Positions 1,791 through 42,035 of a stretch of DNA of 64,000 bases are shown piece after piece. The translations under genes were made by a program, and so were the position numbers. The stretch comes from Humisphaera borealis (GTDB lineage: Bacteria > Planctomycetota > Phycisphaerae > Tepidisphaerales > Tepidisphaeraceae), in assembly GCF_015169395.1 (NCBI RefSeq), contig NZ_CP063458.1:4278001-4342000 (forward strand), given 5' to 3'. The stretch's first letter is position 1. The number at the start of each line of letters is the position of its first letter. The notes beneath the pieces are model-generated. The model was given only the letters and a program-made list of their open reading frames with translations, did no database searches and was not told the origin of the DNA.

Positions 1791-2642
1791 ATGCACATCG
1801 AGTTGCTCGAAAGCCGGCGACTGATGTCGCAAGTGCCGATCGCGGAAGCCGCGAATGCCGACATCGGGGGTAGGTTCACGTCCCTGTCGTCGGCACCGCT
1901 TGAGGTGTCGGCATACGGTTTGGCGACTGCCGAGAAACGCCGCGCTGAGCAATTGACGAGCCTGTTCGAAAACAGCACGCCCGACCTGCAATACGGCTAC
2001 ATCCAGAATCTGCACGACGGTCGCGGCCTGACGGCCGGACGCGCCGGGTTCTGCACCGGCACCGGCGACTTCTACGAGGTGGTCCGCCGGTACACGGATC
2101 TGAAGCCCGACAACCGTCTGGCCAGGTTTCTGCACCGGCTTGAGCGGCTTGCCGAAAGGGGTAGCCCTTCGACCGCCCGTCTGGCCGGCATCAAGAAGGC
2201 CTGGCGCAAGTGCGCCCTCGACGCTGACTTCCAGGGCGTCCAGGATTCCGTTGTTGATGACTATTACTACACCCCCGCCATGACGCGCGCCCAAACGGTC
2301 GGCCTGACCTACGCGTTGTCAAAGGCGCAGCTTTACGATGCGATCATCCAGCAAGGCGAAGGCGACGATCCCGACGGGCTGCCCGCGATGATCACCCGCG
2401 CCAACACCCAGGCCGGCGGCACGCCCGCCAGCGGCGTTCCCGAGACCTCCTGGTTGCGTGCCTTCCTGGACGTCCGCATTCAAACGCTGACCCACCCCAC
2501 CGACCCCGCCACCGCCAAAGCCTGGGCCGATTCGGTCGATCGCGTGCAGGTGTTCGCGACTCTGCTCGACCAGAACAATCTCGGCCTGACGGGCACGATC
2601 GACGTGACCGTTTACGGCGATCGCTTCCTGCTGGTAGAGTAG
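1791..2642 (+). CDS. GH46-type chitosanase with N-terminal LESRRLMS motif
   Basis: A 283-residue protein whose body (about residues 50-280) follows the GH46 chitosanase pattern known from Streptomyces CsnN174. The segments FENSTPDLQYGYIQ, HDGRGLTAGRAGFCTGTGD, DAIIQQGEGDDPDGLP and VTVYGDRFLL align in order. The catalytic pair should be Glu60 (in FENS) and Asp76 (in HDGRG). It would cleave beta-1,4-linked glucosamine polymers. The N-terminus has no hydrophobic signal peptide; it has MHIELLESRRLMS, resembling the short LEPR/LEGRQLMS motif at the start of many planctomycete surface proteins. AAGGA lies 7 bases before the ATG. The family call is from remembered motifs. Confidence 0.85.
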   Translation: MHIELLESRRLMSQVPIAEAANADIGGRFTSLSSAPLEVSAYGLATAEKRRAEQLTSLFENSTPDLQYGYIQNLHDGRGLTAGRAGFCTGTGDFYEVVRRYTDLKPDNRLARFLHRLERLAERGSPSTARLAGIKKAWRKCALDADFQGVQDSVVDDYYYTPAMTRAQTVGLTYALSKAQLYDAIIQQGEGDDPDGLPAMITRANTQAGGTPASGVPETSWLRAFLDVRIQTLTHPTDPATAKAWADSVDRVQVFATLLDQNNLGLTGTIDVTVYGDRFLLVE

Positions 2643-35214: not shown

Positions 35215-35429
35215 GAGACTTTCGACCCCCAGGCGCACTCCTTCGGGCGACCCGTCAAAGTCGAAAAGGACGCCGGCGTTAACAGTTGTCGCGAGAATCT
35301 CGGTCCGCCGTTTAGGTCGGTCGCACTCCGTGGCCCTGAAAAGGGCTCCCGCCGGACTCAACAACTCGGGCTACATTTCCCCCGTCAGTCAGGAACCCCG
35401 TCGTTGCACGCTTGCCGAAGGAGACGCCC

Positions 35430-36477
35430 TTGTACCGTTCCCATTCCACTCGCTCTGGTCGCGTCCCGGTCGTCGAATCGCTCGAAGGGCGTCAGTTAAT
35501 GAGCGTGACGCTCGACCCGGTGACCAAGGTATTGACCACCAATGGCGGGGCGGCGACGGATACAGTGTCCATCTCCATAGACGACCGTGAGGCTGAAAGT
35601 GGTGGAGAACGGAGTGGTCCGTTACTTCGCGCTGGGGTCGGTGAAGGCCATCGTCATGAACGGCAACGGCGGGAACGATTCGCTCACCGTGTCGGACCTG
35701 GTCCTGAAACCTGTAACCCTAAACGGCGGTGCTGGCGACGATACCCTCCGCGGTGGCGGCGGCAACGATACCCTTAACGGGGGCAATGGCGCGGACACGC
35801 TCGACGGCGGCCGCGGCGGCGATGTGTTCAACGGTGGGGCGGGTGTCGATACCGTCACCTACGCCAGCCGTACAAAGTCCCTCTATGTCAACATCAACAA
35901 CATCGCCGACGACGGCGAAGGTTTCCCCGACGCCAGCGTCGAGAAGGACAACGTCAAGACGGATGTGGAGAACCTCAAAGGCGGCTCCGCTGCCGACTGG
36001 TTCATGGGATCATCCGCCGCCAACACCTTCCAGGGCTTCGGCGGCGATGACCTCCTGATGGGCGGCGCCGGCGACGACGTCCTCATCGGCGGCGATGGCA
36101 ACGACGCCTTCGGCGGTGAAGGCGGCGGCGGTGCCGACAAGTACTACGGGGAAGCCGGCGACGACTTCTTCTATGGAGAAGGCTCCGACAACGTCTACTT
36201 CAGCGGCGGCGACGGCGACGACGAGTTCTATGTCACCTTCGGCGGCACGCTCGTCGGCGGCAACGGCAACGACAAATTCTACGCCGGCGGATCGGCTCCC
36301 ATCACCATCAACGCCGGCGCGGGCAACGACATCATCGACGTTTGCAACGGCGAAGTGAAAGACATCGTCGACGGAGGCACGGGCACCGATCAGGTGAAGA
36401 TCGACAAGTTCAGCAACACCCAACTCGACAAGACCACCAATTGCGAAACGATTCTCGTGGGTGTCGCGGGCTTCTGA
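35430..36477 (+). pseudogene. RTX-like Ca-binding repeat protein with LEGRQLMS leader, split by a +1 frameshift
   Basis: The N-terminal frame begins at a TTG (35430) with AAGGAG 6 bases upstream and reads LYRSHSTRSGRVPVVESLEG then RQLMSVTLDPVT, a planctomycete LEPR-like leader without a hydrophobic signal. At about 35585 one extra base (GACGACC before GTG) moves it out of frame; the second frame (open from 35581 to 36477) carries glycine/aspartate nonapeptides such as GGAGDDTLRGGGGND and GGDGNDAFGG that bind calcium in a beta-roll. Removing one C rejoins both into about 348 residues. The shift may be real decay or a sequencing error. Confidence 0.75.
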
Positions 36478-36582: not shown

Positions 36583-39500
36583 TCACTTCGCCCGGGCCAC
36601 GCGACGCCGCCGGGCCAGCAGTCCGCAGCCGGCCATCGCGAGCAAACCGACCGAGGCCGGTTCGGGGACGGCTGTAAGGGTGACGTCGTTACCGACGTAG
36701 CTGATCGTGAAGACGGTACCGAGGTTACCTGCCACGGTGTCCCCTTCGTTCAGCGGTACCCCGCCGATGCTGAACAGGCCGGAGATGGTTCCGGTTGCGG
36801 TGTTGTCGACAATCACAAACGCCTGGCCGGCTGCCAGATTCGGTTGCTCCACGATCGACAGTGCGACAGTGGGATTGATCGTCAGCGTCGTTCCGGTGCC
36901 GGTCAGCGCGAGCTGGTCGTAGTCCGTGCCGGCAACGAGCAGGGTATCGGCACCGACATCGCCGAGCTCGACGGTGTACGTGGAGCCGGTAGCCATCGTG
37001 ACCGGGGCGGTCGCGGTCAGTTTGCCCGGGCTTGTGCCCGGCGAGAGGGTGCCGCCGCTGTTGATACTGATCGCCGCTGCAATGCTGCCCGAACCACCGA
37101 GGGTCGCATTGTTGGAAACATTGACGGCGGTGGAACCCGAGGTCGCCAGCGACCCGTTGACCAGCAGGGTGCCCGCGGAGACGAGCGTATCGCCGGTGTA
37201 AGTGCTGGCACCGGAGATGGTGAGGATGCCCGTGCCAGTCTTGGTCAGGCCGCCGGTGCTGGTTCCACCAAATCGCAGCAAGGCGGAGGCGATGCTCACC
37301 GAGTTCGCACCGGTATCGATCTTCGCGCCGCCATTCTTCACATTGGCAGTCACGGACGTGGGCAAGGTCAATCCCGCACTGGCGACAAGCTGGCCGCCGT
37401 CGAAGTTGAACTCACGGGTGCCCACCGTCGTTGAGGTGACGCTTCCCAGTGTGAGGGTGCCGCCATTGAGGTTGACGATGCCGCTCTGAGCGGAGCCGAC
37501 CTGATACCCGATGGTGCCGATATTGGCCGACCCAGTGTTGATGGTCAGTGTGCCACCGCCCAAGCTTGCGCCATTGCCCAATAGAAGCGACGCAAGTCCG
37601 GCCGTCGCGTTATAGACGCCGCCGTTGATGATCAACGCGCCGTTACCCGCAGTGCCATTGCCGAGGATGTCCTGTGCGCCGGTCCCAGACCCCTGGGTGG
37701 TCAGCGTTGCGCCGGCATTAATCGTCAAGTCGCTGGCGACCGTGTTGCCCACCAACAGGCCTCGCTGGTTAACGGCGGCACCACCGGACACAAAGTTGCC
37801 TGTATTGAGCTGATTTCCCGTGCCTCGTACGTCCAGTCGCGAAATTGTGAGCGTGCCGGCCGTGTTGAAGATGCTATTGCCGGTCGTGAGAAAGCCATTG
37901 GCCCCCGCCGGGCTGATCGTCAGGAAGCCGGTCGCGCCGGTACCGGTCACGGACTGCCCGGTGCCCAGTGTGAAGTTAGCCGCGCTTTGCAACGTCGCCC
38001 CGTTGCCGATCGTGATAAGAGCCGTGTTCCCGGTCGCATTCGCGGCCAGCACCAGCGTTCCGGCTGACACCGTGGTGGCACCGGTATAGGTATTGGTGCC
38101 CGAGAGTGTCAGCGTTCCGGCACCCTGCTTCACGAGGCTCAGATTGCCGGCCAGGATCACGCTATTGGCCGCCGAGCCGCCGGTAGGAGAGTAATTTATG
38201 GCATTGTTGACGGTCAGCACCGCCGCGTTGATGGCGTCGGTGTTTGTGATCGTCTTGGTGCCGGTTGACGCAGAACCGCCGCTGTAAGTGATGCCCGCAA
38301 TCGTCTGACTAAACCCATTGAGGTCCAGAATGGGAGAAGTGGCACCAGATGAGTTCCCCATGATCAGCTCCGACGCCGAGGGCAGTACGCCCGCCGCTCC
38401 CATTTTAAGGGTGCCAACGGCCAACACGGTGTTTACCCAGCTATAGGTTTTTCCAGGCGCTCCGACCAGCCAGGTACCGGCGTCGGTCTTGGCGAAGTTG
38501 CCGCCGGTCAGGTTCACGTTGCCGATCACCCGGTTCGTGGCGCTGGTCGATGTGCCGCGAACGAACAAGACGGCGTTATTGGCCAGCGTTCCCGTGATGT
38601 CACCGCTGATGGTGATGGAGCCCGTGCCGCCTGAGTTCCACTGAACCAGGTTTGTATCGCTGCTGACGTTGATGGAGCCTGTGAGTGTGTGATTGAACGC
38701 GCTGCTGTTAACAAGCGCCGCACGACCTCCCAGATTACCGGAAAAGTTGAGGTTTTCGGCAATCGTCAAGCCAGCAGTGGCGCTCGACAAATCGAGGTTC
38801 ACACCGGTGGTACCATTGCCGCCATTGATCGTCGTCGCGCCGGCCGTGGTGCCCAGCGCGTTGTTGTGTGCGATCGCCAGGGTCCCGCTGTTGACCACGG
38901 TCGCCCCGGTGTAGTCGTTGTTTCCAGCTAGCGTAAGGGTACCCGTGCCGAACTTGGTCAGCGTTGAGGCCGACGTATTGTCGCTGATCACGGAATTGAT
39001 CGTGATGGCCGCATTAGCCACCCCGGCGAGATCACCGCCGGCGGTAGAAGCCGTCAGTGTGCCCGGCGTCGCTGCGATGCCGATCGTCAGCGCCCCGGCC
39101 CCTGCACCCTGAAGGATAGCACTGGTGCGAAGGGTGTTCCCCGCGCCGATATCCACGGTGCCCGCGGTGGTGGCGGTGTTTACCAGGGTATCGGTCGACG
39201 TGACACCGGGGGCGGCCAGGGTAATGTCGGCGACCGTGCCGACACCTTCAATGATGCGTGTGTGACCGGCTCCGCCCGCAATAGTTTTCGTTCCGGAACT
39301 CAGGCGCGTGACATCGGTGTAGGCGGCTCCGGTGATAAGCCCATTCGGAGCGTTGGTGGAGTTCACCGCCCAGCCGTCTCCATTAATGGTGGCCCAGAAG
39401 CCGAGGATACCCAGGCTGTTATTCGTGTTATTGGTGGTGGCAAGGCCAGCCGCACCAAAGCTGATGCCGGAGCCTGCGTTGTTGGTGATGGTGCCCAACT

Positions 39501-41001
39501 GCAGGACCGCCGTGTTGGCACCCGACCGCGTCACACTGGAGGTCAGGCCAGTCGTCAACGTGGTAGACGCGACCACTTCCAGATGGCTACCCGTAGCACC
39601 GGCCAGGATAAGGTTGCCCCCAAGTGTAAGGGAAGCGGTGTCTGACAGTTTATTGTTGTCCTGGGTGGCGTAGTCGAGGATCAGCGTTCCGGTATTCAGC
39701 GTGGTCGCACCGGTGAAGGTGTTGTTGCCGGAGAGCGTCAGGGAATTGCCGCCATTCTTGATCAGGCTGCCGCCGGTGCCGCTGATGGCTGCACCGATGT
39801 TGTTACCAACGTTGCTGCCATCGGTCTGGATCGTGAGCGTGTTGGCACCCAGGCTGACAGTGGTCGTGCCGGGGATGATCAGCGTGCTGTTGCCGTTGAT
39901 TGTGGTCGAGACGTTTCCACCCAGCGTGAGACCGCCATTCAAGTTCAGTGCGAGTGTGTTGGCGGCGGCGCCGCCCGAAGTGATCAGGGTGCCGCCATTA
40001 ATCGTCAGCGGCTGGAAATAGTTGGCTGTCGTGGCTCCTGTTCCCGACTGTGCGAAATTGAGCGTAGCACCCGACGCAACCGTAATGCTTGACGGGCCGT
40101 TGGTACCGGGAGTGTTCCCGCCCAGCGCGGGGTAGGCAGTGCCACCGACGACGAGACTGCCCGCGTTGACGTTGATCGCCCCGGTGAATGTATTGGCACC
40201 AGACAAAGTGAGCGTGCCGGTCCCGGCCTTGGTGAGGCCGACGCCCGTGCTTCCGCTGATTGCGCCCCCAAAGACCGCGTTGCTGTTCGTCGTGATGGTG
40301 CGGTTGGCCGCGCCCAACGCCATAGCGTTGGTAAACGTCAGCGCACCGTTGTTGGTGGCGTCGCCAAGGGTGAAGTCGCCACCGACAGTGATGCCTCCTG
40401 CGTACTTTCCGGTCAGGTCTCGAGCGGTTGTGCTGTTTGAGCGGATGGTGCCGCCGTTGATCGTCAGCGTATTGCCCGCGCCTCCGCCCAACGCATTGAC
40501 ACCGCCGACGGCGACCGTTCCAGCGTTCAGCGTGAAACCGCCCACGTAGGCGTTACCGTTTGCGCTGACGAGAGTGCCATTGCCGTTCTTGATGTATCCC
40601 GAGCCCGCAGCGACCGATAGCGCCTGTGCAGCCAGATCGAGCGTCGAACCGGTGCCTACATCCAACGTGCGGATGTTTCCACCCGTTCCAAGTGTCCCCC
40701 CCGCCGTGAACGTTACAGTGAACCCATTGGCGACCGTTATGTTGCCGACATCAACGGTTGCCCCGGTGACCAGTGAATTGGCACCGAAGACGATGTTGCC
40801 GTTCGTTGTAAAGGCCGAAGTGAAGGGACCCCCTGGCGACGCACTCCAGTTGGCAGTGTTGATCGTCGCGAGCGTCCCGTTGGTGTTCCAATACTGCTGA
40901 GCCTGCACAGCGGAGGCGGTCAACAGACCTCCACCGAGAATCGACATGGCGATGATTCTGGACGAGCGATTGCGACGCTTATTCTGAAGCGAAATCTTCA
41001 T
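36583..41001 (-). CDS. giant autotransporter-associated beta-strand repeat protein with PEP-CTERM
   Basis: A 1472-residue secreted protein. The signal peptide is about residues 1-36 (IIAMSILGGGLLTASAVQAQ). The body is an array of autotransporter-associated repeats of the type GTGTLTLSGxNTYTGATxVxxGTL, seen at least five times (for example GAGTLTLSGTNTYTGATTVS), folding as a right-handed beta-helix. The tail is PEP-CTERM (VPEPASVGLLAMAG, then ARRRR), so an exosortase should sort it. No translocator barrel is present, so it is not a true type V autotransporter; it is likely a surface or matrix protein. Confidence 0.92.
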   Translation of the reverse strand: MKISLQNKRRNRSSRIIAMSILGGGLLTASAVQAQQYWNTNGTLATINTANWSASPGGPFTSAFTTNGNIVFGANSLVTGATVDVGNITVANGFTVTFTAGGTLGTGGNIRTLDVGTGSTLDLAAQALSVAAGSGYIKNGNGTLVSANGNAYVGGFTLNAGTVAVGGVNALGGGAGNTLTINGGTIRSNSTTARDLTGKYAGGITVGGDFTLGDATNNGALTFTNAMALGAANRTITTNSNAVFGGAISGSTGVGLTKAGTGTLTLSGANTFTGAINVNAGSLVVGGTAYPALGGNTPGTNGPSSITVASGATLNFAQSGTGATTANYFQPLTINGGTLITSGGAAANTLALNLNGGLTLGGNVSTTINGNSTLIIPGTTTVSLGANTLTIQTDGSNVGNNIGAAISGTGGSLIKNGGNSLTLSGNNTFTGATTLNTGTLILDYATQDNNKLSDTASLTLGGNLILAGATGSHLEVVASTTLTTGLTSSVTRSGANTAVLQLGTITNNAGSGISFGAAGLATTNNTNNSLGILGFWATINGDGWAVNSTNAPNGLITGAAYTDVTRLSSGTKTIAGGAGHTRIIEGVGTVADITLAAPGVTSTDTLVNTATTAGTVDIGAGNTLRTSAILQGAGAGALTIGIAATPGTLTASTAGGDLAGVANAAITINSVISDNTSASTLTKFGTGTLTLAGNNDYTGATVVNSGTLAIAHNNALGTTAGATTINGGNGTTGVNLDLSSATAGLTIAENLNFSGNLGGRAALVNSSAFNHTLTGSINVSSDTNLVQWNSGGTGSITISGDITGTLANNAVLFVRGTSTSATNRVIGNVNLTGGNFAKTDAGTWLVGAPGKTYSWVNTVLAVGTLKMGAAGVLPSASELIMGNSSGATSPILDLNGFSQTIAGITYSGGSASTGTKTITNTDAINAAVLTVNNAINYSPTGGSAANSVILAGNLSLVKQGAGTLTLSGTNTYTGATTVSAGTLVLAANATGNTALITIGNGATLQSAANFTLGTGQSVTGTGATGFLTISPAGANGFLTTGNSIFNTAGTLTISRLDVRGTGNQLNTGNFVSGGAAVNQRGLLVGNTVASDLTINAGATLTTQGSGTGAQDILGNGTAGNGALIINGGVYNATAGLASLLLGNGASLGGGTLTINTGSANIGTIGYQVGSAQSGIVNLNGGTLTLGSVTSTTVGTREFNFDGGQLVASAGLTLPTSVTANVKNGGAKIDTGANSVSIASALLRFGGTSTGGLTKTGTGILTISGASTYTGDTLVSAGTLLVNGSLATSGSTAVNVSNNATLGGSGSIAAAISINSGGTLSPGTSPGKLTATAPVTMATGSTYTVELGDVGADTLLVAGTDYDQLALTGTGTTLTINPTVALSIVEQPNLAAGQAFVIVDNTATGTISGLFSIGGVPLNEGDTVAGNLGTVFTISYVGNDVTLTAVPEPASVGLLAMAGCGLLARRRRVARAK

Positions 41002-42035
41002 GAGTGATGTTCTTCCAGCAATGCTAAATGTCGCAACCTCATCGCGAAGCACGAAAGGCAATCCAAGCGGACGCTCGAACCGTCTGCAGACCGGTTACCG
41101 CTCAGGCGCTCCTGAGTTTGATCACCGCGGACCCAGTGAACCGGGACTCAGGAACGACCACACGGGAAAAGATTAAGACTCGGCGAGGGTAATCTCGGAG
41201 CTTTGTGTGAGCGAAATCTCTCTTGCCGCAAACGGATTGTCAAAGAGAAAAGGTCTGAAAAGTAGGGTATCGAAGTGGGTCCATGTGGACAGTCCACGCC
41301 TGCCCCGGCCGGGGTCACATGATTTTGCTTGATCGATCGGCCGAAGTCCGTACAATATACGAACATTTAGGCGCCCTAGCGGCCGGTCGTCCGAACTACT
41401 CGGACGGCGAATGCCAAGTTGGAAGACCTGTATTTCGACGGCGTTGCGGCCGTGGGAGGTGGTCTTGGCGCACGAACATCGTCCCCCTGTGGCCATTGTC
41501 CAAGGCGGGCTGTGTCGACGGAGCAATTTTGAGATATCTCGGGTTCGTTCGGCCAACGACACAGCGACACGGCGACCCGGCGACCCAACGACCCGACGGT
41601 GCGGCGCACCCGCGAAGCTTCGGGTTCAGGGATGCCCTCGGGTTCGTTCGGCAGTGTCGCCTTGGGTTCGTTCGGCCGAGGACTGAGGTGGGGGATCAAT
41701 GCTCATCGGCGTGTGACATACCTTTCACGGCTTGGAAAGCCGTGTCGCCGACAGCGGTCACGGTCGGCGGGCTTGGGTTCGTTCGGCGATGTCGAGTCGG
41801 GTTCGTTCGCCCAACAAGCCGACGGCGCAGTTGTTCCCGCGGCGCCCCGGGCTCAGGGACGATCTCGAGTTCGTTCGGCGATGTCGCCTCGGGTTCGTTT
41901 GGCGGCTTGAGCCGGGTGCGGTGGGGCTTGGTGCTATGGAATAACCTGGAACGGCTGCCGTTTTAGGAGGTCGGAAGTCATCGGCACGCGGTGCCGGGGC
42001 TGCTGCGCTCCAGTTCATCAATCAAGGATCGTGTC
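41002..42035. other. gene-free stretch, upstream of the repeat protein gene
   Basis: About 1030 bases. The first 500 should hold the promoter of the giant PEP-CTERM gene; I looked for a sigma-54 type -24/-12 pair there and did not find one. The rest holds the second GGGTTCGTTCGGC cluster. Open frames across the repeats are translation by-products. Confidence 0.6.
41538..41906. repeat. GGGTTCGTTCGGC repeat, cluster 2 (seven copies, three 24-bp pairs)
   Basis: Copies begin at 41538, 41637, 41661, 41772, 41796, 41864 and 41888. Six form three pairs (41637/41661, 41772/41796, 41864/41888), each exactly 24 bases start to start, with spacer bases close to GATGTCGC. Some copies show one change (TTCGTTTGG, CTCGAGTTCG). 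Shared modules with cluster 1 include CCAACAAGCCGACGGCGCAG and TTGGAAAGCCGTGTCGCCGA. The 24-bp step is a little over two helical turns. Confidence 0.85.

Follow-up and report, generated by a model that had tools for sequence, protein, structure and literature searches.

The gene at positions 1791–2642 of the forward strand of the window (the whole stretch of Humisphaera borealis DNA that was analysed, 64,000 nucleotides) raises the question of how an enzyme whose substrate, chitosan, is extracellular could leave the cell when its amino-terminus does not look like a conventional signal peptide. It is uncommon for an export signal to have neither a hydrophobic core nor a known machine. Our analysis indicates that the product is probably a secreted GH46 endo-chitosanase, exported not through a Sec or Tat signal but by means of a 13-residue leader with an ExLExR core.

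The reading frame starts with the ATG at position 1791 and ends with the stop codon at 2640–2642, encoding 283 amino acids. A Shine-Dalgarno-like AAGGA (positions 1779–1783, + strand), read directly from the sequence, is located 7 nucleotides before the ATG; a promoter scan found nothing. The preliminary description had taken the product for a GH46 chitosanase retaining Glu60 and Asp76, and had advised a comparison with the family profile. Profile, catalytic residues and fold all bear this out. The Pfam profile Glyco_hydro_46 (PF01374) matches residues 54–267 with an E-value of 1.3e-57, over profile positions 1–207 of 210, i.e. as a whole domain. The best relatives of solved structure are the GH46 entries 7c6c, 7c6d and 6lwu (E-values from 4e-70 to 9e-67, with 3.8e-70 for 7c6c), which taken together cover residues 43–281 of the 283. 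An AF2 model, calculated from an input alignment of six homologues, has a pLDDT of 81, with values above 80 across most of the body and around 30 for residues 1–40. When this model is used as a Foldseek query, the same three structures come out on top, with an E-value of 7e-23 and TM-scores of 0.81 and 0.94 for 7c6c.

The catalytic body (residues 45–283, positions 1923–2639, + strand), as delimited by Pfam, the solved homologues and the AF2 model, contains both expected acidic residues. Glu60 (codon GAA, 1968–1970, + strand) aligns with the mutated site of 7c6d, the chain of which is the E19A catalytic mutant, while Asp76 (codon GAC, 2016–2018, + strand) is the first residue of DGRGLT, corresponding to the DGRGxT catalytic loop of GH46. 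By its sequence the product is an intact and complete GH46 enzyme, with predicted activity on chitosan. As the solved homologues align up to residue 281, there is no extra carboxy-terminal domain or signal, and the part that does not belong to the enzyme is confined to approximately the first 44 residues. These comprise the leader and a linker (residues 14–44, positions 1830–1922, + strand), which has no conserved domain and a low AF2 pLDDT.

The leader, MHIELLESRRLMS (residues 1–13, positions 1791–1829, + strand), contains the motif I-E-L-L-E-S-R-R-L-M-S in residues 3–13, matching a consensus of 42 members from the same genome. No hydrophobic core or conventional signal peptide was found at the chitosanase amino-terminus with Kyte-Doolittle averages over 12-residue windows, as had been remarked before: the best window has a mean of 0.66, compared to about 2.5 in three reference signal peptides. 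Nor can an upstream start conceal a signal peptide, since the ten sense codons in frame 5' of the ATG contain no ATG, GTG or TTG and are preceded by an in-frame stop, 11 codons upstream. A start at Met12, inside the motif, is unlikely; it has no visible ribosome-binding site, and the residues preceding it are conserved throughout the class. The ExLExRxL core lies near the amino-terminus, with just MH ahead of it and without the basic RRL stretch of the 2004 consensus. This stretch is also missing from other short leaders and so is not diagnostic of the class within this family of bacteria.

When the leader was scored against a profile from which the chitosanase itself had been left out, it reached 17.5 bits (E-value 6e-4 for 7000 proteins), while the best of 7000 shuffled sequences reached 13.4 bits under the same profile. 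At the DNA level, a pattern for LExRxLM occurs 23 times in the genome (7.19 Mb) and the reversed pattern once; all 23 sites are in frame and near the amino-terminus of an open reading frame. The resemblance is not due to chance, because the leave-one-out score exceeds that of the best shuffle and the pattern counts differ in the same way. A pattern with proline (LEPR) gave fewer matches than its control, proline being rare at that position in this genome.

The preliminary description had also called for an alignment of such amino-termini. They form a genome-wide class. At least 42 proteins carry [VILF]-E-x-L-E-x-R-x-L-[ML]-[SA], always at the amino-terminus and on unrelated proteins of extracellular type, other enzymes included; the profile gives 84 matches at E-values up to 0.05. 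In the 42 members that were examined in full, and on which the consensus figures rest, glutamate or aspartate at position -2, glutamate at +1 and arginine at +3 are each present in 42 of 42, leucine occupies position 0 in 41, and the sequence continues with L, M/L/F, S/A and A/V. The shortest measures about 100 residues and comes from a broken frame in the window; the longest measures 4500. Pfam domains on these proteins are animal haem peroxidase, subtilase, CAP, calpain with RTX, polysaccharide lyase, glucose/sorbosone dehydrogenase with carbohydrate-binding modules (CBMs), FG-GAP, kelch, Calx-beta and RTX repeats. In both size and complexity, the chitosanase ranks near the lower end of these cargoes.

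The conservation within the class bears on export via Tat through S-R-R-L-M-S, which is very improbable here: the chitosanase leader does contain SRR, and Tat is used by some GH46 enzymes (PMC4663542), but the second arginine is found in just 14 of the 42 leaders, against the invariant Glu +1 and Arg +3, and no h-region follows the twin arginine of the chitosanase.

A carboxy-terminal membrane helix is present in none of the 42 leader proteins, which excludes PEP-CTERM-like sorting for them. They also have no common carboxy-terminal signal, their carboxy-termini being mostly unrelated; the leader is therefore the only element shared by all. Within the window, a second leader with the core VVESLEGRQLMS, VPVVESLEGRQLMS (35466–35504, + strand), belongs to an RTX-type protein (35412–36477). 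The RTX-type frame itself (35587–36477, + strand) is in another frame than this leader, so the protein appears to be interrupted, whether by a frameshift or by an error in the sequence. An autotransporter-like repeat protein (36583–41061, - strand) combines an ordinary signal peptide with a PEP-CTERM-like carboxy-terminus, suggesting that this genome also uses a Sec plus PEP-CTERM route. At another locus (L098, 753–2690, + strand), two adjoining genes encode short proteins whose leaders, MIFESLENRRVFS and MNFEALESRQLLS, are no longer than the chitosanase leader.

A leader that does the work of a signal peptide should alternate with it on one and the same kind of enzyme domain. This premise was examined on 57 glucose/sorbosone dehydrogenase domains, including their amino-terminal part, from 26 genomes of the same family, with signal peptides called by a hydropathy rule (not SignalP) and leaders by a motif rule. 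A leader only was assigned to 22 domains, a signal peptide only to 29, both to two and neither to one, while three are cut by contig ends. In one of the "both" cases (L193) the motif match is inside the enzyme and in the other (L231) there is a weak hydrophobic stretch behind the leader; the "neither" case (L226) has a weak stretch resembling a signal peptide. The Fisher P value for exclusion is 8e-12 with kinship ignored. A first classification, before both rules were relaxed, had given 17 leaders, 24 signal peptides, 13 unassigned and three cut. As the rules were relaxed after this first pass and before the CAP domain was tested, CAP provides the cleaner of the two tests: in the 26 genomes it has 19 leaders, six signal peptides, none with both and two with neither by rule (Fisher P 9e-5, again ignoring kinship), the latter pair, IERLEARTLRSA and IEGLESRLLRAA, being leaders by eye. 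Related sequences are not independent events and both Fisher values thus overstate the evidence. For polysaccharide lyases, a leader is present in this genome and in the one of the same genus, and hydrophobic amino-termini in ten others. As far as the rules can tell them apart, the leader and predicted Sec signal peptides stand in the same place on shared enzyme domains and are almost mutually exclusive. Replacement of the Sec signal on the same domains is the behaviour expected of an export signal. The chitosanase appears to fit this pattern, its counterpart in the same-genus genome having a predicted Sec signal.

The exchange also bears on whether the leader is instead a sorting or retention tag, fixing to the surface or envelope proteins that have been exported by something else. 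Many cargoes are adhesin-like or giant, and in Tuwongella 20 of 52 tagged proteins were detected by mass spectrometry, of which eight were in the SDS-soluble fraction only (PMC8567305), as a tag of this kind might lead one to expect. The fractionation does not prove membrane crossing. Against a retention tag, neither end of the tagged proteins shows a further recognisable export signal, and the leader replaces Sec signal peptides rather than accompanying them; we consider this alternative unlikely.

RTX repeats are present on several tagged proteins and a giant RTX protein of Vibrio has a LEPR-XLL amino-terminus (PMC10868602), so that the leader might be an amino-terminal type I signal for HlyB/HlyD/TolC, a proposal that differs in the machine and overlaps with the main explanation. 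Of 30 planctomycete genomes, none has a match above the cut-off of TIGR01843, the model for type I HlyD, which speaks against a classical system, not against a divergent one. The best score of the model in this genome is 42 bits, with a cut-off of 208.65, and one control genome passed the cut-off. The chitosanase, of which the GH46 body reaches residue 281 of 283, also has no carboxy-terminal RTX or secretion signal. A classical type I system has a small chance of being correct, slightly larger than that of the retention tag.

The leader is a general feature of the family; the enzyme is rare among related genomes. Leader-profile matches occur in 26 of 26 genomes of the family; across the phylum, a strict cut-off finds the leader in 19 of 294 genomes, scattered, usually with a basic stretch ahead of the core and L-L-S-A behind it. 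This mostly empty phylum search and the reversed DNA pattern serve as the negative controls for the specificity of the leader. By Pfam, GH46 is found among 61 relatives only in this genome and in that of the same genus, and a protein search for close GH46 bodies returns this genome alone among 392 of the phylum. The nearest relatives found are from Bacillota, a cyanobacterium and a Bacteroidota MAG. The rarity of the enzyme and the distance of these relatives suggest that the gene may have been acquired horizontally and subsequently fitted with the local leader.

Such an origin is also the basis for supposing that the chitosanase is cytoplasmic, or a recent acquisition in which the resemblance to a leader has no function. 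Among the nearer GH46 relatives, two (L005 and L006) have neither a signal peptide nor a leader, so that a GH46 body lacking a signal has precedent. Both suppositions are improbable: the leave-one-out score is well above the shuffles, the leader is placed exactly at the amino-terminus and chitosan is outside the cell. Moreover, in GH46 clusters A, B and D most enzymes are made with a Sec or Tat signal peptide (PMC4663542). The preliminary description had counted normal signal peptides on relatives with the same enzyme body, together with an unconserved motif, as evidence against export. The first has a counterpart here in the predicted Sec signal of the same-genus GH46, although that enzyme belongs to another, more distant subgroup; the second does not, the motif class being strongly conserved. 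In the same-genus enzyme (L001, 918–1778, - strand), a glutamate apparently replaces the catalytic aspartate (KENRGYT versus HDGRGLT). The cyanobacterial GH46 (L005, 2791–3723, + strand) has a LysM-like amino-terminal segment, and a Laceyella GH46 (L004, 1669–3720, + strand) is fused to a long amino-terminal part with a membrane helix and apparent lytic transglycosylase and M23 peptidase domains.

Export of the chitosanase through its leader is therefore a reading well supported by inference. In or at the cytoplasmic membrane, a dedicated exporter would bind the conserved [VIFL]-E-x-L-E-x-R-x-L-L/M face and take the enzyme through the envelope, and the protein may be processed close to the small residues S/A-A/V behind the motif. 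The exported enzyme would degrade chitosan, for instance of fungal walls, outside the cell or at its surface. More tentatively, planctomycetes may possess a separate pathway, neither classical type I nor Tat, that recognises a core some 11 residues long without a hydrophobic stretch and is interchangeable with Sec on ordinary enzymes, the chitosanase being among its smallest complete substrates. We regard this wider proposal as a serious possibility, held with less confidence than export of the chitosanase itself. The motif has been suspected since 2004 (Studholme, as cited in PMC8567305) and much of its known cargo is giant and hard to handle. A single-domain enzyme of 283 amino acids, the activity of which can be read on chitosan plates, is a simple reporter and a minimal test case, for which the natural swap of leader and signal peptide provides a matched control design.

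When compared with known systems, the enzyme body is ordinary. It shares the fold, the catalytic glutamate and aspartate and the DGRGxT loop with 7c6c (Bacillus subtilis MY002) and 6lwu (Gynuella sunshinyii), at 47–48% identity in structural alignment. The difference is in the amino-terminus, a leader where GH46 enzymes of clusters A, B and D usually have a Sec or Tat signal peptide; the GH46 review in question does not mention planctomycetes (PMC4663542).

The leader has its closest parallels in RRLxxExLExRxLLA, the planctomycete motif known from surface proteins of Rhodopirellula baltica and put forward as an export signal (Studholme et al. 2004, as cited in PMC8567305), and in the LxLExLExRxxP set of Tuwongella immobilis. 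These have the same amino-terminal ExLExR core on many unrelated proteins of surface type and on enzymes too; serine proteases and a glucose dehydrogenase are already listed among the tagged proteins (PMC8567305). Compared to the 2004 motif as cited there, the core in our genome mostly runs on as L-M-S-A/V, the shortest leaders, such as MHIELLESRRLMS, have no basic RRL, and the cargo of the chitosanase leader is a single GH46 domain. LEPR-XLL, or LEPR-8K (NCBIfam NF012209), likewise has an LExRxLL-type core near the amino-terminus, judging from the name of the family. NCBIfam scans gave no LEPR-8K match, and NF012209 (cut-off 17 bits) has no match in the genome at E-values up to 0.001, nor did it match any control genome. 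The Vibrio LEPR-XLL cargo measures about 8000 amino acids (PMC10868602), compared to 283 for the chitosanase. Of the earlier proposal that the leader is an export or sorting signal on a simple enzyme, a real class, its presence on simple enzymes and its exchange with Sec signals stand, but not its novelty, as the export idea and the use of the leader on enzymes are already known (PMC8567305). What is new is an unusually minimal cargo for a known class of leaders, together with the exchange test.
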